Of a stretch of DNA of 30,340 bases, positions 5,001 through 26,723 are shown piece by piece. The translations under genes were made by a program, and so were the position numbers. The stretch comes from a virus: positions 1 to 30,340 of IMG/VR virus record IMGVR_UViG_3300028392_000220, one strand, 5' to 3'. A model generated the notes under the pieces. That model did not search any database. It was not told the origin of the DNA and was given only the letters and a program-made list of their open reading frames with translations. Position 1 is the stretch's first letter, and each line of letters starts with the position of its first letter.

Positions 5001-5484
5001 AACAACTTATTATGTTAAAGCATATGCATCTGGTTCAATTGGTGCGGCATATGGTAATGAACTAACATTTACTACATTGCCTGGCACATCAAGTTTCCAA
5101 GTATATATTTCCTCAAGTATGGCAGGATATTCTCCAACTATTCAAAATATTTTTATAAATAGTGGTAGTTTATTATTTAAAAATTCAGCAGGATTAAACG
5201 TTACATATCCATTAACTGGCAGTGCGACATCATCATTAACATATAGTAGTAGTTATTATGATATAGCAATAACGGCATCTCAAAGTTTTCCATTAAGTAA
5301 AGGGCATCGCGCATATCTATCATTAGATCGTGTAAATAATAATGGAGGTATTGCTGAAAATATAGCTAATGTTAATATTGCGGCTGGGACATCATCGTTT
5401 GTATTTACAAACGATGATGGCGAACCACTTAATATTCCTTGGCAATCTGAAACATATATTAGATTATCAATGTACCATACTTAA
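2086..5484 (+). CDS. Large fibre or baseplate-associated structural protein with FN3-like domain
   Basis: A 1132-residue protein rich in Gly, Ser, Thr, Asn and Tyr with beta-type sequence throughout, as in tail fibres, baseplate decorations or adhesins. The first 150 residues look like an immunoglobulin-type beta domain. Residues about 897-1000 form a fibronectin-III-like repeat of the kind common in Bacteroidota surface proteins, ending in LTGLTPGTTYYVKAYA and then GNELTFTTLPG. A separate beta domain of about 130 residues follows to the C-terminus. There is no signal peptide, which fits assembly in the cytoplasm. The next gene starts 11 bases downstream and is glycosyltransferase-like, so the two probably share a transcript. 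I do not recognise the first 890 residues as a named family. The role as receptor-binding or fibre protein is inferred from composition, size and the FN3-like unit. Confidence 0.6.
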   Translation: MAIIKKTLFPINLDRWSYYINDDLESSRYFKITELSDTFNGGKNGFRIQGSEYLAADSTISIEIKDSQGNVIYHEPVRGNPQYYEGTNIVVSVIVYPDTAFGPCTITIMGELATFETNGGKYPIPDEWLGRHNVRWQKRINVQPYHNNTTRIRFYKRPSVTIQEQTIPLYSKTTQTTTYTTFCSGSSVLGNPYYYDYNKYLTNKINSENITITTGSIFGPGSTLKEGSYYKIIQNGGAGCRFYDVGVREIIGAATGTNFYFKAIQTYAYTGSNNIIQPNVPALDDYGTYTPGTIKWPDTTGTVYLQEVFLNARSDYYIEFINPYGRINNAVSYDNGLTTNYPYLNVPDDLSKTYILDNIINENYQINITNIIGTGNYNGGSPGTRINAGGTDGEGIQYPDSSPVLARWNTTAWKYTQIGSKYRLYLNDSVSPIYADGPGYGIIDPGTFTAATVALHDGLGFINSFESADISITKTKDVYLQSGLSQSYAYITIKDLETFTGEVYKVKAYAKSRNDLQGYKLLDDIRLETNQLLLADSYLNNLNVRTGIFTTTDVISTFWNTTTLDGTTNLVYTINASSSFYSHSIYLEPSTIPSYKTDGLAKFETKNSFSFIKNTEYNLSYNLVCKSTPYGIASLDIYLSGSAFNNDNLTTQRGKSIGSHNFSNKIILDRQSINFVADNDGSGSLNFTINNGNWELSDISLTPYQQIAFSPNEFTFRIVPNQKIANETFDFKFEFYDINYALAPITVETAYTFVGGNNLSKRFLLQYASLVNPKNKFIVSNKTGGISGLDIAPNQPTLDISWVLSQTNGDVLFVSSAYDEYDNYILPSDVSSPYPYPGGLDYIATTQRSLTFQNFTSSLTNSSRRVKNIYYTASVDGLTQYFSMSADYTAAPLYVLPVVTTNAVYSINQTSVSGSGSVTVEPVTGHISPVEVGLVLNDTTAPTIFANIAKTSESSYTLNVPFSGSLTGLTPGTTYYVKAYASGSIGAAYGNELTFTTLPGTSSFQVYISSSMAGYSPTIQNIFINSGSLLFKNSAGLNVTYPLTGSATSSLTYSSSYYDIAITASQSFPLSKGHRAYLSLDRVNNNGGIAENIANVNIAAGTSSFVFTNDDGEPLNIPWQSETYIRLSMYHT

Positions 5485-5495
5485 ATAATTTTAAA

Positions 5496-6443
5496 ATGAA
5501 AAAATTACGTTACATTTGTGTACAACCACGCATTAAGTATTATAGTTGGCAAGTTGAAGTTATGATAAATAACTTTATAAAAAATGGAATAAGTGGTAAT
5601 GATATGGATATATTAATTGCCTACAATCCAAATGATTTAACGAGTTCGGAAGAAAATATAGAAAATTGGTATAAATTAGCAGATAGATACAACTATGTTC
5701 GTTTTTTCTTTTATGAAGATAGTAGAACGGATTTTAGTTATATTCCATCTGTTTATTTTAATATCTTAAAACAACATATAAAATCACACCCGTATCTGCA
5801 AGATGAAGTATTATTTCTACATGATTGCGATATTGTGTTTACTAAATATGTAGATTTTTCGGATATGCTGAATGATGATATTTGGTATCTATCCGATACG
5901 GTTGGCTATATAGGTACACAATACATTTTTACAAAAGGTCAAGATGTATATAATGGGATGTGTAATATAATCGGAATAGACCCATTGATACCAAAATTAA
6001 TGAATAGTAATTCCGGCGGAGCTCAACATATAGTAAAAAATACAACTTATGAGTATTGGGATAAAGTTGAAAATGATTCTATAAAATTATACAAATATTT
6101 TAATGATATAGAACCACAATGGGAAGGCGAAGGTGAGCCAATACAAAAATGGACAGCTGGTATGTGGTCGCTACTTTGGAATGCTTGGTTATTTGGAAAC
6201 GAAACGCGAGTAGATAAAAGATTGGATTTTTGTTGGGCTACCGACCCGATTAAAGATTGGTATAATGTATCAATATTTCATAACGCAGGTGTAGTAGATA
6301 ATCTCACAGCACAATTCTATAAGGGAGCATTTCAAGAAGAATACCCATATGGAATAGACCCAACTAATTATAGCAAATCATACTGCTCATATAATTATGT
6401 AAATGAAATAATACAAACTTCTAAAATATCTTGTCTTATATAA
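5496..6443 (+). CDS. Glycosyltransferase-like protein (GT-A type)
   Basis: This 315-residue cytoplasmic protein begins like a nucleotide-sugar glycosyltransferase (MKKLRYICVQPR). It has a DxD-type metal/sugar-nucleotide motif in FLHDCDIVF, with D110 and D112 preceded by hydrophobic strand residues. Further on, NSNSGGAQHIVK and a Trp-rich segment (WTAGMWSLLWNAWLFG) resemble the acceptor half of GT-A enzymes acting on proteins. It follows the large fibre gene by 11 bases with no promoter motif between, so the likely substrate is a phage structural protein or a host surface glycan. The family call rests on the DxD context and overall pattern. A nucleotide-sugar enzyme of another kind is possible. 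Confidence 0.55.
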   Translation: MKKLRYICVQPRIKYYSWQVEVMINNFIKNGISGNDMDILIAYNPNDLTSSEENIENWYKLADRYNYVRFFFYEDSRTDFSYIPSVYFNILKQHIKSHPYLQDEVLFLHDCDIVFTKYVDFSDMLNDDIWYLSDTVGYIGTQYIFTKGQDVYNGMCNIIGIDPLIPKLMNSNSGGAQHIVKNTTYEYWDKVENDSIKLYKYFNDIEPQWEGEGEPIQKWTAGMWSLLWNAWLFGNETRVDKRLDFCWATDPIKDWYNVSIFHNAGVVDNLTAQFYKGAFQEEYPYGIDPTNYSKSYCSYNYVNEIIQTSKISCLI

Positions 6444-6616: not shown

Positions 6617-9600
6617 ATGAATATAATAAGCGAAATCACTAAACCACTTGTTACGAAGACTGTCGTTATATACGCAGGTCGTTTTCAACCATTTCACAAA
6701 GGGCATTACGATGCTTATAAAAGACTTGTAAGTAAATTTGGACAAGATAGTGTATACATTGGCACTTCAAATGATACAAATGATTCTAAATCACCATTTA
6801 ATTTTAATGAAAAAAAGAAAATTGCTACAACTATGTTTGGCATCCCTTCTAATCATTTTGTACAAATAAGAAATCCATATAAACCAGTTGAAATATTGCA
6901 GCATTTCGATGGACAGACTACTCAATATATTGCTGCTGTTGGAGCAAAGGATGCGACACGTCTTCAAGGAAAATATTTCAAACCATATAACGGTAAGGCC
7001 GGTTATGGGTATAATGAGATAGGATATGTTTGGCCAGTACCAGCAGAATCAAATCCAATATCAGGAACAGATGTTCGTAATGGTCTTGGTGGCGATGAAG
7101 AAAGTGCTAAGAAGTTTTTCCTTAAAGCTTATCCAAAATTTAATAAACAAATATTTACAATGATTACTGATAAAATAAAATCATTGCATGAGGCAGCACC
7201 AATGGTTGGCGCTGGTGAGGCTGGAAGTTTTGGACTAAATCCAACTAGATATGATGATGATGATGTTACGGAAGATGGTTTTCCAGGTGGAGTGGGTGTA
7301 GGGCTTACATTACCCGGTGGATACATAAATGGTGCACCCAATCCAAAAGATGTAAAAAAATTAAGTAAAAAAATACATACTACGGATAGTAATAAAAAAT
7401 ATGTATATGACCCAATTAGTGAAATAATAGCTAACGCAGTCACAGAGGAAGCATTTAACGAATTTATAAGTAACTACTTAAATGAAGCTGAACCAAATAA
7501 AGCATTAGACCAGGATATTACATATAAAAATACAAAAGGTCAATCTAAAAAAATTAAAGCTAGAGATGCATTACGTTTACCAAAAGACCACCCTGCGCAT
7601 ATACAAGCTGCAAAAATAGCAGCTACTGCCGCACCAGCTGCTAAGACTGCCGGTAAACCGGATGTAAGTATACCTGGAAAGGTAGCAGGTTCTGTTGTTA
7701 AAAAGAGCGATGGTAAGCCTGATATAACAATTCCTGGTAAAGATGGTAAGCCAAAACAACAAGGTCCGCCGCCTCCACCACCAATGCCGCCAAAAAAATT
7801 AAGTGGAGCTGAATTAAAATCCAATGCTGAAATGGCACCTGGAGAAAAGGAAGCTTCTAAAAAGAATGACGAAATAAAAGCATCACTCGATCATGAAATG
7901 TCAAAACTATCAACTGATGATAAAAAATCGGTTGAAAGCGTAAATAACCCAGATTCTCCGGAAAGAAAGGATATGGCTGAAAAATCTAAAAGTTTTTTAT
8001 CAAAAGTTGGTAATAAATTATGGAGTGGCGCCAAACATTGGGCTAATGAGAAAAAAGAAATGTGTCAAGGAGTTGGTGCTGCAATAAAAACATTAGCTAC
8101 AGGCGGTAAACTTGGTAGTGTAAAGGATGCAAATGGTAAATATGTACACCATACGGATTTTAAAAATAAAACTGTACAAATCGACCCAAAGACAGCAAAG
8201 GAAAAAACAGTATGGGTAGATAAATCGGATTTAACGCCTGAAGAAAAGAAATTAAAACATAAATCCGAGCATGAGGAACATCACCAAAAGCATTCATTAA
8301 AACATGCTGCAAAAGATATTGCATTACTTGCCGCATCATTGGTTGCAGGAGCAGCTATTGGTGGAGCCGTTGGTGGTGGTATTGCTGCAGCAAAAGCTGG
8401 GGCTGCACACGGATTAGGACATGCGATTGGGCATGGCGCTGCGCATGGTGTAAGTGCAATTGCACACCACGGAGCAACAGGTATAGCCTCCCATGTTGGA
8501 AAGGATTTGATAAAACACTCTGCGTTTGAAGCTATGGGACTTAAAGGACACCACGCCGCTGGAGCAACTGCCGCAGTTGGTGCAATTGGTCATTTAATGG
8601 AAGGCGATGATAATAATGAGAATGATAATGATAAGAATGCAAAATTAGTGGATACATTACTAAAAAGGACTATGGAAGTAATGGCAACTTATAAAATGTC
8701 GGATGAGGAATTATTAAAATCTATTAAGAATTATAATAAAAATTCAGAAAAGAATACAGCAAAAGATATACTAAAAACAATTAATGAATCTGTAACATTA
8801 GAAAAAGCAAAGAATATACAAGATTTTGTTGATTACGCTTGTGAAAGACTTAAACTTAAAGATAAACCAAAAGTAAAATTATTATTAGATGGTGAATATT
8901 CCAATGCCGTATCTTCATTAGGTGGATATAGCCCGGTAACAAAAGATATATACGTTGTTGTGCCTGGTAGAATGACTGCCGATATATGTAGAACTATTGC
9001 ACATGAATTGGTACATAGAAAGCAAGATGAAATGGGGATGCTACGAACTGAAAATGATGGCGATACTGGTTCACCAATAGAAAATCAAGCAAACGCTGTA
9101 GCAGGAATACTATTAAGGGATTATGGTAAAAAGAATAAAGCAATTTATATGGAAAGCGTAAAATATATAAACGAAGTTAGCAACAATACTGGAGATGATG
9201 GTCAACCGGATGGTGGATATCTGCCAGCTGGGCACAGACGTACGCTTGGAGCAAATGATGGTGTGAATAAAGGTGATGATTGGTTTACCGGCGGAGGTTA
9301 CCTACAACTGGATTATCCAATAGCAGATGCAATATATGGTGCCGATGAAGAAAATATGTATACTGTAAAATATGTTGCTAGAAAATTAAGAAGGTCGATT
9401 GGTATAGATACTAAATTTGAAAAGAGTGAAGAAAAGGCAATAGATGTAACTCAAGACAAAAAAAATGGAAAATTAACAGATGAAACTAATAGTAAACGTA
9501 ATCTTACCGAAGTAAGTAAACGTGATATACATTTCAAAAATATATTCCAACATTATAGAGATGGCGATGCTAAAATGAAACAAAAAATAGCAGCAATAAT

Positions 9601-11665
9601 TACCGGAAATGCTTATGCAAAAATAAAAGAGATTCTAAAAGATATAATGGAAATGGGGCACAATGAGGTTGAAGAAATTGAAGACCAAATTGGAATATCA
9701 TTATCTGAAACTATTAAAAAAGTCGGTAGTAAATATATTGTATATCCAAAAAAAGGTGGTAAAAGATTAGGAACGCATAGCACATACAAATCGGCTAAAA
9801 AACAATTGGCAGCAATTGAAATTAATAAAGAAAGCTCAGAAGCTGATGGATATTATGGATCGGGAGCAAGCCGATGGGATGATGATACTCACTATAAAAA
9901 TGAAAATATTACTATCAATAATAAGCGTGCAAATACATTCCGCACAATTGAAGAAGCATTTGATAGTTTTTATGATAAAATGATTGAAGAAAATACATAT
10001 GAAATACCAACTATTAATGGTAAGCAAGCAATTACATTTAGAAAATTAGATGAAGCAAATGATATATTGGGCGCCATATCGCAAGATGGCGGCTCTACTA
10101 CCGTAAAAATGCCGTATTCAAAAAAATGGGAAGAATTTGATGATACGGCAGATAAATTATCAGATATTATTGGTTGGAAAAGATTACATCACCCAAGCGA
10201 TTCATATGAATATTATCGTAAAAATTTAGTAATCCCAACCTTTAATAGAAGTGAAGAAAATGGTAAAGGTAAACGTTGGATGCATCCAACTAAATCAAAA
10301 GAATATGCTGAGCATAAAAAAAGAACTTGGGAGGTTTGGCCATTTAATAATAGAGAAGAACCATACAATGAAGATCATGGTCAAGTTTATAAAATAAGAA
10401 GAAATGCATATGTTGAACCAACGATTATAAAATCAATAAAAGAAAATATAAATGAATCAAAACTTTTATTAGAAGGTGGAGCATATGGACACATGTCACA
10501 TCCATTTGATGATATGGATTTAACGTTTGGTGACCTTAAAAATATTATTAGTAAAGCATTAGATGGTGATTTAGGAGTAGTAAGAGAAAAAACCGATGGA
10601 CAGGCTTTGGCAATAAGTTGGAAAAACGGAAGATTGATTGCTGCAAGAAATAAAGGACATTTGCAAAACGCAGGAGCAAACGCAATGGGTATTGAAGAAG
10701 TTGCGGCTAAGTTTGCAGGACGTGGTGGACTAACAGATGCATACAACTTTGCAATGCGTGATTTATCTGCGGCAATTGCAGGATTGACAAAAGCTCAACG
10801 TGATAAAATATTCAATGAAGGCAAATGTTTTATGAATATTGAAGTAATATGGCCTACATCTGTAAATGTAATACCATATGGACAAGCATTATTAGTATTT
10901 CATAATACTACTTGCTATGATGTATCAGGTACAGCAATTAGTGGAGAGCAAACAACAGCAAGAATGTTGGCCGGAATGATTAAACAAATTAATGCAGATG
11001 TACAAAGTAAATACACAATACAAGGGCCACCAATTACCGAAATACCAAAGAATCAAAATTTAAGTTCTCTTAAACCAAAATATTTTTCAAAACTTTCTAA
11101 ATTACAAAATGAATTTGGATTAACCGATAATGATACTATTTCATTATATCATCAAAGTTGGTGGGAAAATTTTATAAATAAAAAAGCTCCAGTTAAGGTT
11201 GATAAAATGACAAAAGAAGCACTAGTTAGACGTTGGGCATTTGGTGATAAAACATTTAAGATTAATACAATATCAAACGCAGAATTGCAAAAATGGGCAT
11301 TAAATACTGATAAAGTTAATGTAGCAAAACAACAAAAAGATAATATCCGTCCATTTGAAGAAATATTTTTAGGAGTTGGAGCTGATATACTTTCATTTGT
11401 TGGGTCTGTATTAACTGTACATCCTGATAAGGCAATTCGTAATATGAAAGATAGATTAAAGGCAACCGCAGAACAAGTTAGAACCGCCGGAAGTCCTGCT
11501 CAAATACAAAAATTAAAAACCGAATTACAAAGATTAAATAATTTAGGCGGTATTGATAAGATAGTTGCATCCGAAGGATTGGTATTCTTTTATAATGGAA
11601 AAACTTATAAGCTTACTGGAACGTTTGCCCCGCTTAACCAAATTTTGGGAATTTTTTACGAATAA
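6617..11665 (+). CDS. 1682-aa multi-enzyme protein: NMNAT-like + zincin-like + nucleic-acid-ligase-like domains
   Basis: Domains in order. Residues 15-185 are an HxGH nucleotidylyltransferase of the NMNAT/NadM kind, with GRFQPFHKGH at 21-30 and ISGTDVR at 148-154. Residues 330-395 are Ala/Pro linkers with two GKPDxxIPGK repeats and a six-Pro run. Residues 545-660 are a Gly/Ala/His-rich, glycine-zipper-like segment. Residues 730-840 are a zincin-like peptidase with HELVH at 796-800 and ENQANAVA from 822 as a plausible third-ligand helix. Residues 1037-1070 are a small phage module (YPKKGGKRLGTH). Residues 1290-1682 resemble ATP-dependent DNA/RNA ligases: KTDG at 1325-1328 (motif I), ARNKG at 1343-1347, NIEVIWP at 1407-1413 (motif III), EGLVF at 1653-1657 (IV) and YKLTG at 1664-1668 (V). 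Sites fitting (L/I)xE|A/G occur after residues 192, 290, 662 and 1286, near domain borders. Its place among structural genes suggests virion cargo, which is inference. Confidence 0.75.
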   Translation: MNIISEITKPLVTKTVVIYAGRFQPFHKGHYDAYKRLVSKFGQDSVYIGTSNDTNDSKSPFNFNEKKKIATTMFGIPSNHFVQIRNPYKPVEILQHFDGQTTQYIAAVGAKDATRLQGKYFKPYNGKAGYGYNEIGYVWPVPAESNPISGTDVRNGLGGDEESAKKFFLKAYPKFNKQIFTMITDKIKSLHEAAPMVGAGEAGSFGLNPTRYDDDDVTEDGFPGGVGVGLTLPGGYINGAPNPKDVKKLSKKIHTTDSNKKYVYDPISEIIANAVTEEAFNEFISNYLNEAEPNKALDQDITYKNTKGQSKKIKARDALRLPKDHPAHIQAAKIAATAAPAAKTAGKPDVSIPGKVAGSVVKKSDGKPDITIPGKDGKPKQQGPPPPPPMPPKKLSGAELKSNAEMAPGEKEASKKNDEIKASLDHEMSKLSTDDKKSVESVNNPDSPERKDMAEKSKSFLSKVGNKLWSGAKHWANEKKEMCQGVGAAIKTLATGGKLGSVKDANGKYVHHTDFKNKTVQIDPKTAKEKTVWVDKSDLTPEEKKLKHKSEHEEHHQKHSLKHAAKDIALLAASLVAGAAIGGAVGGGIAAAKAGAAHGLGHAIGHGAAHGVSAIAHHGATGIASHVGKDLIKHSAFEAMGLKGHHAAGATAAVGAIGHLMEGDDNNENDNDKNAKLVDTLLKRTMEVMATYKMSDEELLKSIKNYNKNSEKNTAKDILKTINESVTLEKAKNIQDFVDYACERLKLKDKPKVKLLLDGEYSNAVSSLGGYSPVTKDIYVVVPGRMTADICRTIAHELVHRKQDEMGMLRTENDGDTGSPIENQANAVAGILLRDYGKKNKAIYMESVKYINEVSNNTGDDGQPDGGYLPAGHRRTLGANDGVNKGDDWFTGGGYLQLDYPIADAIYGADEENMYTVKYVARKLRRSIGIDTKFEKSEEKAIDVTQDKKNGKLTDETNSKRNLTEVSKRDIHFKNIFQHYRDGDAKMKQKIAAIITGNAYAKIKEILKDIMEMGHNEVEEIEDQIGISLSETIKKVGSKYIVYPKKGGKRLGTHSTYKSAKKQLAAIEINKESSEADGYYGSGASRWDDDTHYKNENITINNKRANTFRTIEEAFDSFYDKMIEENTYEIPTINGKQAITFRKLDEANDILGAISQDGGSTTVKMPYSKKWEEFDDTADKLSDIIGWKRLHHPSDSYEYYRKNLVIPTFNRSEENGKGKRWMHPTKSKEYAEHKKRTWEVWPFNNREEPYNEDHGQVYKIRRNAYVEPTIIKSIKENINESKLLLEGGAYGHMSHPFDDMDLTFGDLKNIISKALDGDLGVVREKTDGQALAISWKNGRLIAARNKGHLQNAGANAMGIEEVAAKFAGRGGLTDAYNFAMRDLSAAIAGLTKAQRDKIFNEGKCFMNIEVIWPTSVNVIPYGQALLVFHNTTCYDVSGTAISGEQTTARMLAGMIKQINADVQSKYTIQGPPITEIPKNQNLSSLKPKYFSKLSKLQNEFGLTDNDTISLYHQSWWENFINKKAPVKVDKMTKEALVRRWAFGDKTFKINTISNAELQKWALNTDKVNVAKQQKDNIRPFEEIFLGVGADILSFVGSVLTVHPDKAIRNMKDRLKATAEQVRTAGSPAQIQKLKTELQRLNNLGGIDKIVASEGLVFFYNGKTYKLTGTFAPLNQILGIFYE

Positions 11666-19155: not shown

Positions 19156-19740
19156 ATGCCAGCGGTAAGTAAATCACAACAAAAATTAATGGGAATTGTA
19201 CATGCTATCCAAAAAGGAGAAGCAAACCCAAAAGATTTCAGCAAAGGAGCACAAGATATGGCTAAAAATATGAAAAAATCCGATGTTAAAGATTTTGCAT
19301 CAACAAAGCAAAAAGGACTTCCTGATAAAAAAGAAAATACGGATAAACTAAAAGAGTATATTCGTAAAATGGTTAGAGAAATGGGTACAACGGGTGCGGT
19401 TGATGGATATAATACACCATTTGCATTTGGCAAACGTGGCAATGAAAAAGCAAAAGCTAAAAAGCAAGCCGATTTGACTGGGTATACTCCAGTAAATGAA
19501 AATCGTTGGTTAGAACTAAAAAAAGAAGATAGTCCAGCTAACGCCAAAATAAACAAAGGTATCTCAAACATAAATAAACAACTTGCTGAAATGGAAAAGT
19601 TTATGGATTGGTATGGTAGATTGAAGCAAGAGAGTGGTGTTACGAATGAAACTTTTTGGAAAGCAACAAATCGTAACATTTATACGATTAAAGAAAGATT
19701 AGTGAGGCTTGAGCAGAAAATTCGTAAAATATCTGAATAA
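19156..19740 (+). CDS. DUF3008-like modular head-region protein
   Basis: A 194-residue basic protein of three modules. Residues 1-60 are DUF3008-like (MPAVSKSQQKLMGIVHAIQK ... SDVKDFASTKQKGLP). Residues about 75-110 carry a hydrophobic helix (LKEYIRKMVREMG) and the phage module GAVDGYNTPFAFG. Residues 115-194 begin with NRWLELKKED and continue as a helical unit (ISNINKQLAEMEKFMDWYGR ... NIYTIKERLVRLEQKI). These pieces recur in different orders in related phages, as far as I recall, which suggests shuffled virion cargo. Its stop overlaps the next start by one base (TAATG), implying coupled translation. Function is unknown. Confidence 0.7.
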   Translation: MPAVSKSQQKLMGIVHAIQKGEANPKDFSKGAQDMAKNMKKSDVKDFASTKQKGLPDKKENTDKLKEYIRKMVREMGTTGAVDGYNTPFAFGKRGNEKAKAKKQADLTGYTPVNENRWLELKKEDSPANAKINKGISNINKQLAEMEKFMDWYGRLKQESGVTNETFWKATNRNIYTIKERLVRLEQKIRKISE

Positions 19741-20357
19741 TGAATTTAACGGAATTAGAAAATATTGTTGAGGAAATTGTAAGAGAAGAGATGGAGTATC
19801 AACAGCTCTTCAAAGCCATGCTAAAGGCAACTGGTAAAAATATTCCTACAATGAGTGATACGGAGAAGAAGAAGTTTTTTAATGCCGTAGATAAAGCATA
19901 TAAAGCTAAGACAGAAGGTAGGCTAACTGGGTATAAAGAAAATATGGATGAAGGTTTCATATCCGGATTAATATCATTAATGACAGTGGCAATAATTGGT
20001 AAAGTAATTTTTTACTATTTTATACAATTAGTAGATAAGGGTATGAAATACTTTTCTTCTGATGATAAAAAATTAGAAGTAGTTGTTAAGAAAATATTAA
20101 AAGAGTTATCGGATAATAAATCGTTCATAGATGATGTTACCAATATGATTAATAAAAACAAAGGAATTGATCAAGTAACAGCCAACAAGATTTTAAAAAT
20201 GGGATATACTCAAGACCTAATTAAGAAATATACCGCAAAGGGTGATATTGATAAGAACAAACTTGAGAATGAATTAAAAACCATATTTTTTAAATCTTGG
20301 GAAGATTCAAATGTTGTATCAACAATAACCGATAAAATTAAAAATGATATTAAATAA
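19740..20357 (+). CDS. Head-region protein with FKAML...FFNAVDKAY module and a membrane segment
   Basis: A 205-residue protein. Residues 1-18 form an acidic amphipathic helix (MNLTELENIVEEIVREEM). Residues 19-60 are a small module widespread in phage proteins (YQQLFKAMLKATGK ... SDTEKKKFFNAVDKAY). Residues about 73-98 (GFISGLISLMTVAIIGKVIF and on) are hydrophobic enough to cross or insert into a membrane. The remainder is a Lys-rich helical domain. A membrane segment in a head-cluster protein next to the prohead protease suggests either an ejected protein acting on the host membrane or a membrane-linked assembly factor. It is coupled to both neighbours by one-base TAATG overlaps. Confidence 0.65.
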   Translation: MNLTELENIVEEIVREEMEYQQLFKAMLKATGKNIPTMSDTEKKKFFNAVDKAYKAKTEGRLTGYKENMDEGFISGLISLMTVAIIGKVIFYYFIQLVDKGMKYFSSDDKKLEVVVKKILKELSDNKSFIDDVTNMINKNKGIDQVTANKILKMGYTQDLIKKYTAKGDIDKNKLENELKTIFFKSWEDSNVVSTITDKIKNDIK

Positions 20358-20947
20358 TGAATAAAGGACTCTTAATAGAAACACATTTATTTGAAGCAAA
20401 AATACAAGAGGAAGATAATGGAACTTTCCTTGTTAAAGGTATCCTACAAAGAGCTGGAGCCCCAAATCAAAATAAACGTAGATATCCAAAGGAAATTCTT
20501 AAAAGAGAATGTGATAAGTATCAACAACTTATTAAAGAAAGACGTGCTTTGGGAGAACTTGACCATCCAGATTCACCTGTAATCAATCTTAAAAATGTTT
20601 CACATAATATTAGAGAAATCTATTGGGAAGGCGATGATGTATGTGGTGTAGTAGAAATATTATCAACACCATCTGGAAATATACTAAGAGAACTTCTAAA
20701 AAATAATATTCGTTTAGGAATTAGTAGTAGAGGTTTGGGTTCTGTAAAAGAAATGAACGATGGAACGGTTATGGTTCAGGAAGATTTTGAAATTATAGGT
20801 TGGGATTTCGTTTCAAACCCATCAACGCATGGTGCATTTATGGCGCCAATGAATGAAAGTAAGCAATGGCAGAAAATCGCAGATGAATGTGGTAAATGGT
20901 GTCGCTCACATGACTTAATGCGAGAAATTCTTATCGAATTAAATTAA
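20357..20947 (+). CDS. 21: Prohead maturation protease (gp21-like)
   Basis: A serine protease of the herpesvirus-assemblin/HK97-protease fold that degrades the scaffold and trims capsid proteins before DNA packaging. The 196 residues compare with 212 in T4. Visible family features are KGILQRAGAPNQNKRRYPKE at 27-46, the catalytic His in GELDHPDSP (H70), the catalytic Ser in RLGISSRGLGS (S123 or S124), and IIGWDFVSNPSTHGAFM at 147-163 with D150 a candidate third residue. The N-terminus holds LFE13|A14, a match to its own LxE cleavage pattern, so self-processing is likely. It overlaps the preceding gene by one base and stands among its predicted substrates. Confidence 0.92.
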   Translation: MNKGLLIETHLFEAKIQEEDNGTFLVKGILQRAGAPNQNKRRYPKEILKRECDKYQQLIKERRALGELDHPDSPVINLKNVSHNIREIYWEGDDVCGVVEILSTPSGNILRELLKNNIRLGISSRGLGSVKEMNDGTVMVQEDFEIIGWDFVSNPSTHGAFMAPMNESKQWQKIADECGKWCRSHDLMREILIELN

Positions 20948-20976: not shown

Positions 20977-21342
20977 ATGAAAAAAACAATTTTACAAGAA
21001 GTTAAAGCAATAAACAAAATTGCAGGAACTAAAATTACAAAGCAACAAGAGATTGCATTAATTAAGGAAAGACTTCAAAACTTAAATGAGGCAACAGGAC
21101 CATATTACTCGACAGGATATGAAGCAGGTGGTAATGGCAAGACCGGTAAGTTGGATAAAACAACACCAGAAGGAAAATATATAGCTGCTAAAATAAATCA
21201 ACTATATACATTGATAAATGATAAAAAATTACTTGATTTTACCGAAGGATATGTAAAATCAATGGCAACATCGGTACTAAGATTCGATGGAATAAATAGT
21301 GTTCCAAAAGTATTATTACAAATAAGAGAGAAAAATAAATAA
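20977..21342 (+). CDS. Small unknown head-region protein with capsid-targeting-like N-terminus
   Basis: A 121-residue protein. Residues 1-38 are a Lys/Ile/Leu-rich helix ending in LQNLNE38|A39, which fits the gp21 cleavage pattern and resembles the short N-terminal capsid-targeting peptides of T4 internal proteins. After the site comes a Gly/Tyr-rich stretch (TGPYYSTGYEAGGNGKTGK) and a basic helical C-terminus. It lies directly downstream of the protease gene and four bases before the next gene. The family is not known to me. That it is packaged and trimmed is inference from the motif and its position. Confidence 0.6.
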   Translation: MKKTILQEVKAINKIAGTKITKQQEIALIKERLQNLNEATGPYYSTGYEAGGNGKTGKLDKTTPEGKYIAAKINQLYTLINDKKLLDFTEGYVKSMATSVLRFDGINSVPKVLLQIREKNK

Positions 21343-21346
21343 ATAA

Positions 21347-22033
21347 ATGGCAAAATTAATAAATCTAATACCCGCTAATCAAAAATCACAACAAAAATTA
21401 GCAGAATCTTTTGAAGATCCATTAGAAGGATTTCCTAAAGAGTATAAAGAATTACTTAAAAAACTCCAAAGAAGTAATGATCCAGCTGAAAGAACAATGT
21501 TGATAAATAAGATGAATGTTATTAGAAAAAACATCAAACTTAAACCATTAACAAATGAAGCTTTGGAAGATATGGAAGTATCTTTGCCGTCTACTATGGA
21601 AAGATTTTTGAATAAAACCATTGATATAATTAAATCTTATAAGCTTCCTAGAAAAAAAGAACAACTTGTAATAGCAAAGATGGTCGATGCATTAGGAATG
21701 AGTCCAAATGAATTAACTCAAGTTGTATCTAAATTAAAAAAATACGATATTGTTCATAAGGAAGATATTGAAAACAATGACCACAATTATATGGGTGAAA
21801 CCGTTAATAAATCTACAATAAAAGATTTTCTTAAAGATTTTAACAATAATCCTGATATTTTATCATCAGGGGCTCGTGAAGCAAATGGATATATTACTAT
21901 ATATTTAGATGGCAAAGATGTGCATGATGAATTTCTAGCAACACTTAAATTAGCAAAAACTAAGTATAAAGATAAACTAAAAAGAATTAACTCTGGAGCT
22001 GAAGATATATTGAAGTTTAAAGTTATAAAGTAA
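21347..22033 (+). CDS. Unknown helical head-region protein
   Basis: A 228-residue, Lys/Glu/Leu-rich protein with no signal peptide or membrane segment. The N-terminal segment contains LAE20|S21, a possible maturation-protease site. The middle has heptad-like helices (YKELLKKLQR, LPRKKEQLVIAKMVDALG). The last 60 residues include GYITIYLDGKDVHDEFLATL, a small alpha/beta unit. Its start follows the preceding stop by four bases and no promoter motif separates them. I do not recognise the family. Confidence 0.6.
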   Translation: MAKLINLIPANQKSQQKLAESFEDPLEGFPKEYKELLKKLQRSNDPAERTMLINKMNVIRKNIKLKPLTNEALEDMEVSLPSTMERFLNKTIDIIKSYKLPRKKEQLVIAKMVDALGMSPNELTQVVSKLKKYDIVHKEDIENNDHNYMGETVNKSTIKDFLKDFNNNPDILSSGAREANGYITIYLDGKDVHDEFLATLKLAKTKYKDKLKRINSGAEDILKFKVIK

Positions 22034-22097
22034 TCATTTGGTAGTAAGAATTAGATGATTTAATTAAAAACCACTTGGATACTAAAAAAGATAAATA

Positions 22098-22586
22098 ATG
22101 ATACGTTTAAAAGATATACTAAAAGAAACCGAAGAATACCAACAAATGCCAAAAGAATTAAAAAAGCATTTTTTGGAAATTATATCTACATATGGGCATC
22201 ATAGAGAGGGTATGAATCGAAAATCGGATATTCGTAGTATAGCAGAGACACTGGGTGCAATCGCTGATGCGGCTCAGGAGTACACTCTACATGAAGCAGG
22301 TGATTGGTTTGATAGGGTTACAATTAAACGTAATATGGGCGAGCTAAAGAACTTACAAAAGAAATTTGAGAAAGAGGCAATTGAAGCAAAAAGCCAAGAG
22401 GAAAGACTTGAGGCACTTTACGAAGATATGGGACATGTTTTAGGACGTTACTTTGAAATCGCAGAAATAAGTGAGCAAGAAATGCAACAAAGACTTGGAC
22501 TTAAAGGTAATCAGAGTAAAATTGATATGAATAAGAACGGAAAGATTGACTCACAAGATTTTAAAATATTGAGAAAACAAAAATAA
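22098..22586 (+). CDS. Helical head-region protein with C-terminal EF-hand-like calcium loop
   Basis: A 162-residue protein. The start (MIRLKDILKETEEYQQM) is an amphipathic helix like those on other cargo-like proteins here. Residues 25-122 match a helical phage module I recognise without a function (GMNRKSDIRSIAETLGAIAD, ERLEALYEDMGHVLGRYFEI). Residues 143-154 (DMNKNGKIDSQD) form a complete EF-hand loop, with D143, N145, N147, K149 (main-chain), D151 and D154 at positions 1, 3, 5, 7, 9 and 12, followed by FKILRKQK as in dockerin-type repeats. A single loop may bind Ca2+ only on pairing. The 64-base gap upstream has no TATATTTATA motif and no gene. Confidence 0.65.
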   Translation: MIRLKDILKETEEYQQMPKELKKHFLEIISTYGHHREGMNRKSDIRSIAETLGAIADAAQEYTLHEAGDWFDRVTIKRNMGELKNLQKKFEKEAIEAKSQEERLEALYEDMGHVLGRYFEIAEISEQEMQQRLGLKGNQSKIDMNKNGKIDSQDFKILRKQK

Positions 22587-22591
22587 ATAAA

Positions 22592-22963
22592 ATGGAACAA
22601 TTAGCATCATTATTTTTTCACAGCAGAACACAAGCGCATGTATTCCACTTAGGAGTTAAAGGACCTGGAGCATATGCAGCACATGTGGCATTACAAGCGT
22701 ACTATGACGAAATAATAGGATTAGTAGATGGATTAGTAGAATCGTATCAGGGCAAATACGGACTTATTAAATTTCAACCAGTTAATGGTTTAGATACTAA
22801 TTGTGATATTGAAAATATAATTAAGTATTTTGAAAAATTATGTGGAGCACTTGAAAAGATAAGAACCGATAAAAAATTACAAGATACTTGGATTCAAAAT
22901 CAAATAGACAACATTTCGGAATTATTATATTCAACAAAATATAAGTTAGTAAATTTACAATAA
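22592..22963 (+). CDS. Ferritin/Dps-like protein (DUF5856-like) with intact ferroxidase ligand spacing
   Basis: A 123-residue helical protein whose first half reads HSRTQAHVFHLGVKGPG, then AAHVALQAYYDE and GLVDGLVE. The residues H19, H31, D46 and E50 are separated by 12, 15 and 4 positions, the same spacing as the ferroxidase ligands of Dps (H31, H43, D58, E62 in Listeria Dps). The G-x-x-x-x-x-H and Y-D-E context also matches. Dps proteins oxidise Fe(II) with peroxide and shield DNA. This one is short (Dps is about 150-170 residues), so the fourth helix may be reduced. It follows the EF-hand protein by five bases and precedes a terminator and the scaffold gene. The family number is from memory; the metal-site match is read directly. 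Confidence 0.7.
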   Translation: MEQLASLFFHSRTQAHVFHLGVKGPGAYAAHVALQAYYDEIIGLVDGLVESYQGKYGLIKFQPVNGLDTNCDIENIIKYFEKLCGALEKIRTDKKLQDTWIQNQIDNISELLYSTKYKLVNLQ

Positions 22964-24435: not shown

Positions 24436-26070
24436 ATGAACTTAACAAAATTAATGACAGGTGCTAACCCACAAAGCATTATGCTTGAACAAACTAGAGG
24501 TTTGAAAGCAAAGTGGGAAAGAACTGGTTTACTTGAAGGAGTAGGCGCAGAATCAACTAAGCATGGTATGGCAGTAATGCTTGAAAACCAAGCTAAACAA
24601 TTACTTGATGAGGCTACCCGTACAGGTACAGCAGCAGGTTCAGAAGAATGGGCAGGTGTAGCTCTTCCGTTAGTAAGACGTATCTTTGGTAGCATTGCTG
24701 CAAAAGAGTTCGTTTCAGTACAACCGATGAACTTACCTTCTGGTCTTATTTTCTATATGGATTTCAAATATAGTACAGCAACAGCACAAAACCAACCAGC
24801 TTCTGGTTCTTCTTTGTATGGTGCAGGCGGTGCATTTGGACAAGATTCATTAAACGCATCTGGTAACAAACTTGGATCAACACAAGATACAACTGGTGGT
24901 TTATATGGAGCTGGTCGTTTTGGATATACTGTTAATGACCAAACTACAACAGGTATTACGGCTACATTATTGACTGCATCTTTAGCAGATATTGCGTTTG
25001 ATTTAACAAACACAACTTTATCTTCTTCTGTAGCAGCAGGTACGGCTAGAAAAATGACTGTATTAACAAGTACTTTAACTAATCCAGACCTTAATGCTGT
25101 TAGAACATTCTCAATATCTGGTTCAGGTACAAACTTTGCATACTATCCGCAGTTTACCGCAACTAGTGGTTCAGGCGCTGGTACGGCTATCGTTTTCCTT
25201 GCAACAGGTGTAACTGCAACTGGTACGCAAACTGTAGGTGTATCTTTCAATGCACAACCTACCGCTGCAAACCGTGGTGATTTTGAAGATAGAACAGGCG
25301 CTGATATTGTTATTCCAGAAATTGAATTGGAATTAAAATCAGAACCAATCGTTGCTAAAACTCGTAAGTTAAAAGCAATTTGGACTCCTGAACTTGCACA
25401 AGATTTGAACGCATATCACTCAATTGACGCTGAAGCTGAATTAACTCAAATGTTAAGTGAGTACATCTCTTTGGAAATCGACTTAGAAATCCTTGAAATG
25501 TTACAATTAAACGCTTTAACAGTTGATTATTGGTCTGCTCGTGTTGGATACGATTACAACTCTTCTACCACCTCTTTCGCAGTTGATACTAACGCAGTTC
25601 AAGCATCGGCTTATAACAAATCAACATGGTTCCAGACTTTGGGTATTAAATTACAAAAAGTTTCTAACAAAATTCACCAATTAACAATGCGTGGTGGAGC
25701 AAACTTCATAGTTGCATCTCCAAACGTATGTACAATTCTTGAATCAATGAACGGATTTGCATCTAACCCTGGTAAAGATGCTCTTCAATTCGCAGCAGGT
25801 GTATCACAAATTGGTGCAATCTCTAATCGTTTTGATGTTTATAAGAACCCGTATATGACGGAAAACGTTATCTTATTAGGCTTTAAAGGAAGTAACTTCT
25901 TTGAAACAGGTGCTGTATATGCTCCATATGTTCCATTGATTATGACTCCTTTAGTGTACGACCCAACTAACTTCACTCCTAGACGTGGAGTTATGACTCG
26001 TTACGCTAAGAAGATAGTTAGACCCGAATTTTACGGTAAAATCGTAATCGAAGGTTTGAACACTCTTTAA
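24436..26070 (+). CDS. 23: Major capsid protein (gp23-like)
   Basis: The HK97-fold shell subunit, 544 residues (521 in T4 gp23). Family landmarks are an N-terminal KAKWERTGLLEGVG (compare KWKPLLEGEG in T4), PLVRRIFGSIAAKEFVSVQP, then MNLPSGLIFYMDFKYS, RKLKAIWTPELAQDLNAYHS, DAEAELTQMLSEYISLEIDL, GGANFIVASPNV and a C-terminal GVMTRYAKKIVRPEFYGKI. Residues about 150-270 hold a Thr/Ser/Gly-rich insertion-domain-like stretch. LDE59|A60 matches the T4 maturation site (E65|A66) in position and sequence, so the mature protein probably begins at A60; LLE34|G35 is another possible cut. A-rich leader, no Shine-Dalgarno. A strong terminator follows the gene. Confidence 0.95.
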   Translation: MNLTKLMTGANPQSIMLEQTRGLKAKWERTGLLEGVGAESTKHGMAVMLENQAKQLLDEATRTGTAAGSEEWAGVALPLVRRIFGSIAAKEFVSVQPMNLPSGLIFYMDFKYSTATAQNQPASGSSLYGAGGAFGQDSLNASGNKLGSTQDTTGGLYGAGRFGYTVNDQTTTGITATLLTASLADIAFDLTNTTLSSSVAAGTARKMTVLTSTLTNPDLNAVRTFSISGSGTNFAYYPQFTATSGSGAGTAIVFLATGVTATGTQTVGVSFNAQPTAANRGDFEDRTGADIVIPEIELELKSEPIVAKTRKLKAIWTPELAQDLNAYHSIDAEAELTQMLSEYISLEIDLEILEMLQLNALTVDYWSARVGYDYNSSTTSFAVDTNAVQASAYNKSTWFQTLGIKLQKVSNKIHQLTMRGGANFIVASPNVCTILESMNGFASNPGKDALQFAAGVSQIGAISNRFDVYKNPYMTENVILLGFKGSNFFETGAVYAPYVPLIMTPLVYDPTNFTPRRGVMTRYAKKIVRPEFYGKIVIEGLNTL

Positions 26071-26165: not shown

Positions 26166-26723
26166 ATGGATATTATATACAAACTCACATCGCCAAAAGG
26201 TAAAGTTTACATTGGTAGGACGAATGATTTTCAAACAAGATTGAATCAACATAAGCATAATGCTATGATTAATAGAAAATCAAATTCTTTATATAGAGCA
26301 ATTCGTAAATATGGTTGGGATAATTTTAAAAAAGAAATACTATGCGAAGTTGATGCCGATATTTCTCAAAAAATAGAAGAAGAATTGATAATCGCATATA
26401 ATTCAGTAAAAACTGGGTATAATGATACATACGCCGGTGGGGGTGGTAATTTATGGAAAGATAGAAAAGATACGAATGAGTATACGGAATTTGTTGAAAA
26501 AATGAAAAAAATAAATCAATCAAATAGAATGCATGGCAAAACTCATTCAGATAATACAAAGGAACTACAAAAAGAAAAAGCAAAGGGTAGATACTCATTA
26601 GATTGGTTTATAGATAGGAATGGCGATACCGAAGGAACCCGATTATACGAAGAAAGGCGCCAGTGGTTAAAGAACAGAAACTTATTAAAAGATGCTAATG
26701 GAAGATTTATAAGTAGTTCTTAA
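26166..26723 (+). CDS. Free-standing GIY-YIG homing endonuclease
   Basis: A 185-residue enzyme that would cut a specific DNA site and spread by repair. The GIY-YIG domain covers residues 1-90: IYKLTSPKGKVYIG holds both motif halves (I4-Y5 and Y15-I16-G17), with catalytic Arg R25 in TRLNQHK and Glu in the KIEEELI helix (E71-E73). Residues about 120-135 (NRMHGKTHSDNTKEL) resemble a NUMOD3 DNA-binding repeat. The C-terminus (YSLDWFIDRNGDTEGTRLYE) is another module found in phage homing enzymes. It stands alone between the capsid terminator and the neck genes, with its own promoter-like motif. The flanking capsid and neck genes are intact and there is no sign of an intron. Confidence 0.88.
   Translation: MDIIYKLTSPKGKVYIGRTNDFQTRLNQHKHNAMINRKSNSLYRAIRKYGWDNFKKEILCEVDADISQKIEEELIIAYNSVKTGYNDTYAGGGGNLWKDRKDTNEYTEFVEKMKKINQSNRMHGKTHSDNTKELQKEKAKGRYSLDWFIDRNGDTEGTRLYEERRQWLKNRNLLKDANGRFISSS

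Follow-up and report, generated by a model that had tools for sequence, protein, structure and literature searches.

A 1682-amino-acid protein of a T4-like phage, with an NMNAT-like nucleotidyltransferase and a ligase-like domain, as a predicted head-packaged enzyme precursor

RESULTS

The locus and its surroundings

The DNA analyzed, referred to here as the window, is the 30,340-nucleotide stretch of IMG/VR record IMGVR_UViG_3300028392_000220. Positions 6617 to 11665 of its plus strand form a single uninterrupted open reading frame (ORF) of 1682 amino acids. A preliminary description made from the sequence alone had placed three motif sets in this one frame among structural genes; this was borne out, and the recomputed positions are (i) GRFQPFHKGH at residues 21 to 30 and ISGTDVR at 148 to 154, (ii) HELVH at 796 to 800, and (iii) KTDG at 1325 to 1328, EGLVF at 1653 to 1657, and YKLTG at 1664 to 1668. 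Low-complexity stretches comprise a Pro-rich run (384 to 392) and a Gly/His-rich segment (approximately 601 to 630). The motif sets exceed chance, as judged from a PF01467 match above the cutoff, invariant C-terminal residues, and the conservation of HELVH/HEMVH together with ENxA. Both ends of the protein form a family with about 500 environmental viral loci, and the middle is variable. Fusions of the two end domains were seen in members whose length ranges from 639 to approximately 1900 amino acids. The chain carries several unrelated enzyme domains close to virion genes, as polyvalent proteins do.

The neighbors of the gene in the window encode an SbcC-like protein, terminase, portal, a T4-type prohead protease, the major head protein, and a connector, and we therefore assign the window to a T4-like phage. 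The prohead protease (20357 to 20947, plus strand; phrog_207, E = 7e-53) is the presumed processing enzyme, and the major head protein (24436 to 26070, plus strand; phrog_138, E = 1e-70) contains two sequences that could serve as propeptide sites, LLE↓G at residue 34 and LDE↓A at residue 59 (arrows mark the cut); the site in T4 gp23, for comparison, is FLTE↓A. Further observations on this region concern (i) small ORFs of the head cluster (20977 to 22586) that begin with L/I-x-E leaders (MKKTILQE and MIRLKDILKE) and probably encode further core or internal proteins, (ii) a phrog_858 gene (starvation-inducible regulator, Dps-like; 22592 to 22963) among the head genes, (iii) a GIY-YIG homing endonuclease (26166 to 26723) flanked by the genes of the major head protein and the connector, and (iv) the product of 19156 to 19740, whose N terminus, MPAVSKSQQKLMGIVHAIQKG, is similar to S-SCSM1 ORF93, a protein with a virion annotation.

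The N-terminal domain belongs to the HIGH superfamily

Residues 7 to 192 (6635 to 7192, plus strand) form an NMNAT-like nucleotidyltransferase of the HIGH superfamily. Residues 18 to 155 match PF01467 with 30.7 bits (curated cutoff, 21 bits; E = 4e-7), which supports the nucleotidyltransferase originally proposed for this end, and the domain also matches phrog_395, annotated as cytidyltransferase (E = 1e-8). A tblastn search retrieved phage NadM proteins, including NatV of KVP40 (27.7% identity over residues 18 to 154), and among named proteins phage NadM/NMNAT enzymes are the closest to this domain. The family profile matches structures of phosphopantetheine adenylyltransferase (PPAT) and NMNAT alike. 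The window protein has motifs of the HxGH type (HKGH, residues 27 to 30) and of the ISxTxxR type (ISGTDVR); HxGH is present in most relatives read, with GxHH in its place in about a third. Membership is settled at the level of the superfamily, and the product of the domain is probably NAD or a related dinucleotide.

The C-terminal domain is predicted to have a ligase-like fold

Residues 1287 to 1682 (10475 to 11662, plus strand) were assigned to the ligase-like covalent nucleotidyltransferases by means of an AlphaFold2 model, Foldseek searches of the PDB and BFVD, and a profile comparison with Rnl2. Within this segment we recognized motif I (K1325-x-D-G), motif III (E1409), motif IV (E1653-G), and motif V (K1665-x-T-G). 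In an alignment of 40 diverse sequences with identities down to 25%, the residues K39, D41, G42, E123, N131, Y135, E367, G368, K379, T381, and G382 (counted from residue 1287) are invariant, and the alignment also keeps N...Y and FH beside K-x-D-G, the Glu of motif III, EG, and KxTG. Motifs I, III, and IV are thus in order and invariant, and motif V is KxTG, not KxK. A Pfam scan of members of this domain gave nothing consistent and no Pfam family, and a PDB sequence-profile search with the alignment returned chance matches only.

The AlphaFold2 model of the domain reached a pLDDT of 87.2 and a pTM of 0.82 with 40 more diverse sequences (pLDDT of 81.7 with 37). Ranks 1 to 37 of the Foldseek search against the PDB were all covalent nucleotidyltransferases, namely RNA ligases, DNA ligases, and capping enzymes, with RNA ligases first. 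Probabilities were up to 0.91, but the best E value was 0.02, none reaching 0.001, and TM-scores were approximately 0.2 to 0.26, low values that a large helical insertion perhaps explains. Against BFVD, relatives mostly annotated as "cytidyltransferase-like" or uncharacterized came first, followed by RNA ligases with E values of approximately 2e-3 to 1e-2. In the comparison with the Rnl2 profile, none of 200 column shuffles reached the score, with an hhalign probability of only 8% and members without a PHROG RNA-ligase match, whereas the comparison with Rnl1 was not significant (56 of 200 shuffles reached the score), and membership in the T4 Rnl1 family was dropped on this count. The likeliest reading of the model is that the C-terminal domain has the ligase nucleotidyltransferase fold, with no single PDB match significant by itself. 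The earlier suggestion of a ligase at this end is upheld by the model and by both Foldseek searches; the preliminary description had named the lack of a nucleotidyltransferase or ligase fold in structure predictions as one of the results that would speak against it, and the prediction run for the C-terminal domain did not give this result.

One homolog is interrupted by a split intein exactly between the K and the TDG of the ligase motif. Its gene (L100, 4833 to 6014) is fractured: the N-terminal half of the intein stops at 5131 and the C-terminal half ends with VHN before TDG, and between the halves, at approximately 5187 to 5921, lies a separate ORF that is endonuclease-like. Inteins are commonly located in active sites, and we counted this insertion in favor of the ligase-like reading.

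Variable middle region and modules of relatives

The region between the end domains ranges from almost nothing (L001, 639 amino acids) to more than 1000 amino acids. In the window protein it begins with a variable linker (7193 to 8596, plus strand), partly Pro-rich and Gly/His-rich, which is present in the clade of the window protein and absent from the 639-amino-acid homolog. An M78-like zincin follows (8684 to 9196, plus strand), with HELVH at residues 796 to 800 and ENQANAVAG at 822 to 830. For the peptidase-like domain that had been proposed here, the motif evidence holds, HELVH or HEMVH and the downstream ENxA being retained in homologs of the window clade, but the M78 profile PF06114 stays below its cutoff (14.1 versus 22 bits; E = 0.042), as it does for a free-standing relative in phage B23 (19.5 bits; E = 9e-4). 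Beyond the window clade, most relatives lack the domain. A small accessory module containing GGKRLGTHSTYKSAKKQLAAIE (9629 to 9856, plus strand; phrog_3684, E = 4e-11) is common to other phage proteins and is also found in L022 and L107. In the middle of L022 (4851 to 8711), the segment IYHYTDKKGLAGILKSNSI...ISFTRN resembles by eye an ADP-ribosyltransferase-type fold, with no Pfam match.

Marine relatives also place modules ahead of the nucleotidyltransferase. Nine of the 34 long members carry a P-loop kinase domain; those of L140, L134, L123, and L160 score as Zeta_toxin/AAA_33, and the only PDB matches of the kinase profile with E values below 0.01 were seryl-tRNA(Sec) kinase and the entries 4mde, 4gp6, 4jst, and 4gp7, called metallophosphoesterase in the match table, which we take to be the kinase domain of Clostridium thermocellum Pnkp. 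One of the 34 (L179, 913 to 2637) contains a CCA-adding enzyme (PF01743 and PF12627; E = 4e-31 to solved enzymes) and an HD domain, separated from it by a small inserted module. A Pnkp-like kinase and a CCA-adding enzyme in relatives point to RNA repair more than to DNA repair, so that of the two substrates that the preliminary description had left side by side, RNA is favored over DNA.

These modules also bear on a reading in which the window protein is a packaged NAD-restoring protein. Its NMNAT-like domain would be central and would replace NAD removed by host defenses. The kinase found in relatives would act on ribosylnicotinamide, like that of NadR. The ligase-like domain would play an accessory part or else take AMP from NAD, its partner recycling the NMN. 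The phage NadM/NMNAT enzymes nearest to the N-terminal domain, its pair of HxGH and ISGTxVR motifs, published virion NMNAT-like proteins, and the precedent of NadR, an NMNAT fused to a P-loop kinase (PMC9503650), agree with this reading. However, the kinase matches Zeta_toxin, AAA_33, and RNA kinase structures and not ribosylnicotinamide kinase, a CCA-adding enzyme has no role in NAD salvage, about a third of the relatives are without HxGH, and the window revealed no partner such as NadV. We consider this reading unlikely.

Counterparts of both enzymes in cyanophages

A fusion in the reverse order, with a KWDG ligase-like part followed by a HIGH nucleotidyltransferase, was found in S-PM2d138 (L258, 7486 to 9261), annotated as hypothetical. 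Its ligase-like part is phrog_455, for which no function is annotated. An 11-sequence phrog_455 profile matches the window family with a score reached by none of 200 shuffles, the corresponding figure for a two-sequence profile being 82 of 200; phrog_455 could be annotated as ligase-like. A phrog_455 gene directly precedes a HIGH nucleotidyltransferase gene in S-SZBM1, P-HM1, S-WAM1, S-MbCM6, S-CAM8, and QB2; two genes lie between them in HTVC008M, and they are not adjacent in S-CRM01, S-CAM7, and S-H34. Since the two enzymes stay together whether they are encoded by neighboring genes or fused, and whichever of them comes first in the fusion, they are likely to work together.

NMNAT-like nucleotidyltransferases were detected by mass spectrometry in virions of S-SCSM1, S-SZBM1, and S-CREM2 (PMC9602691, PMC9146016, PMC10665884), and all three have T4-type leaders (MKSFLQFLKE↓A, MRFRQFIIE↓A, and MKNFSSFLTE↓A, respectively). 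The two ligase-like proteins of cyanophages whose complete sequences were read have no T4-type leader, and no virion evidence was found for these two. A 639-amino-acid family member is encoded by the Microcystis phage Mel-JY01, and a literature search on this protein returned no paper. Where the preliminary description had seen a candidate for an undescribed system, the NMNAT part has to be taken out, since NMNAT-like proteins in virions of T4-like phages are already published.

The location of the window gene among head and tail genes, its variable and partly low-complexity middle, and the double role of T4 Rnl1 as tail-fiber attachment factor (according to a database record) might suggest a structural or core head protein, whose enzyme-like domains are relics retained for folding or assembly. 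We regard this as very unlikely, the least probable of the readings considered, given that the residues of the catalytic motifs do not vary even where identity falls to 25%, that an intein targets the KxDG site, that both enzymes recur as separate cyanophage genes, and that relatives acquire further enzymes.

Leader and candidate prohead-protease sites

The cleavage motif of the T4 prohead protease gp21 is L/I-X-E, and short N-terminal propeptides target proteins into the T4 head (PMC9026906). The window protein starts with MNIISE (6617 to 6634, plus strand), which we predict to be a propeptide that targets the capsid and closes with a T4-type site, I-S-E↓; comparable T4 sequences are MELITE (Alt) and MKTYQEFIAE↓A (ipIII). 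It thus has the L/I-x-E in a predicted N-terminal propeptide that marks substrates of T4-type prohead proteases. The pattern [ILV]xE is present in 47 of 49 distinct family leaders (shuffle mean, 23; maximum, 33), a member count that, like those for sites and domains, is not independent, the family sequences being related. The pattern is kept although leader length varies widely.

Three candidate sites lie further along the chain. The first, SLHE↓AAP (7181 to 7201, plus strand), is at the end of the nucleotidyltransferase domain, and 36 of 38 members have an [IL]xE no more than 28 amino acids past the boundary, against a mean of 14 and a maximum of 23 members in shuffles. The second, HLME↓GDD (8591 to 8611, plus strand), is a motif match only. 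The third, LLLE↓ (10463 to 10474, plus strand), directly precedes the C-terminal domain; among 134 distinct sequences, P1 of this site is E in 110, M in 21, and C in 3. As M or C is at P1 in 24 of the 134, LLLE↓GG was dropped as a universal cleavage site. In the enzyme cores of 38 members, [IL]xE is depleted (7 versus 25 and 41 versus 102 expected), whereas the reversed motif is enriched (49 versus 26 and 205 versus 103 expected). Between the domains of these members, L/IxE and the reversed motif are both overrepresented; the enrichment of L/IxE there was therefore dropped as proof of cleavage, and only its depletion in the cores is specific.

The leader data also weigh on the view that the chain is an enzyme polyprotein that is not packaged and acts late during infection, either uncut or processed by the HExxH peptidase that it contains. 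HExxH peptidases were proposed to process other polyvalent proteins (PMC5512222), and detection in virions can be carry-over, as authors of the cyanophage proteomes remark. The conservation of the leader pattern despite the wide change in length, the T4-type leaders of virion-detected relatives, and the rarity of the peptidase beyond the window clade stand against this view, which we rate as distinctly improbable. A packaged multienzyme polyprotein, as envisaged in the preliminary description, is the likeliest form given the leader pattern, the site statistics, and the published virion proteomes of cyanophages with related enzymes, with packaging of the 1682-amino-acid protein itself as a prediction.

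DISCUSSION

A predicted head-packaged RNA-repair precursor

Computation shows which domains this family has, that their pairing is conserved, the pattern of the leaders, and a ligase-like fold. We propose, with a probability of about one-half, that the window protein is a head-packaged polyvalent enzyme precursor of a T4-like phage, cut by the prohead protease, that delivers RNA-repair and NAD-related enzymes. The short N-terminal leader would direct the precursor into the prohead core, and the phage's own prohead protease would cut after L/I-x-E in the leader and the linkers, which would free the NMNAT-like nucleotidyltransferase, the M78-like peptidase, and the RNA-ligase-like enzyme for injection along with the DNA. 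The ligase-like domain would most likely self-adenylylate at K1325 and seal RNA, probably tRNA, cut by host defense nucleases, and as part of this response the nucleotidyltransferase would probably supply NAD or a related dinucleotide. Packaging and cleavage are predicted from the T4 precedent and the leader evidence, and we infer the substrates and the role in defense. Points that weigh against the proposal are the modest Foldseek statistics, the nonsignificant Rnl1 comparison, KxTG as motif V, M or C at P1 ahead of the ligase-like domain, the excess of the reversed motif between domains, GxHH in some relatives, the missing leaders of the two cyanophage ligase-like proteins, and the zeta-toxin matches of the kinase.

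A broader proposal, which we put forward tentatively and hold to be less probable than that for the window protein, is that T4-like phages of fresh- and seawater package into their heads a polyprotein for RNA repair that can evolve by gaining modules. Its constant part, an NMNAT-like enzyme paired with a member of a new ligase family, would be complemented by inserted kinases, CCA-adding enzymes, peptidases, and other modules, the prohead protease would release them inside the capsid, and tRNA repair would start at DNA entry. In T4, RNA repair relies on enzymes produced after infection. If the proposal is true, a virion-delivered repair kit would act before host tRNA-cutting defenses halt translation, and the NMNAT-like proteins that recur in cyanophage virions would be given a context. 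The analysis also names a ligase-like family that is without a Pfam model and occurs in hundreds of environmental viruses, and its link to phrog_455, encoded by many cultured cyanophages, makes the idea testable in culture.

Comparison with known systems

The nearest known concept is the polyvalent protein of phages and conjugative elements (Iyer et al. 2017, PMC5512222). The window protein shares with it a large multidomain chain near virion genes, disparate enzymes, an HExxH metallopeptidase, and predicted packaging and injection; it differs in its T4-type leader and L/IxE sites, which suggest processing by a prohead protease, and in that neither HIGH nucleotidyltransferases nor RNA ligases are mentioned as parts of polyvalent proteins in the passages searched. 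The short N-terminal, head-targeting propeptide ending in L/I-x-E is shared with T4 Alt, IPII, and IPIII (PMC9026906), but Alt and IPI to IPIII are short chains with one or no known activity, whereas the window protein strings several enzymes together. With the virion NMNAT-like proteins of T4-like cyanophages (cytidylyltransferases, phrog_395) it has in common a HIGH nucleotidyltransferase and a T4-type leader, although the sequence similarity is remote (8.4 bits) and the ligase-like partner in cyanophages is usually a separate gene. Both phrog_455 and the window family have a ligase-like domain that carries KxDG and starts with an HxxHxxxD-type motif, and in both a HIGH nucleotidyltransferase is its neighbor or fusion partner; phrog_455 differs in having KWDG and another motif V, and the order of the S-PM2 fusion is reversed. 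Finally, the predicted fold, the order of motifs I, III, IV, and V, and the Pnkp-like kinase added by relatives recall T4 Rnl1 and Rnl2 with Pnkp, which act in tRNA repair, from which the window protein is set apart by a large helical segment inserted after motif III and before motif IV, KxTG as motif V, and its predicted packaging into the head.
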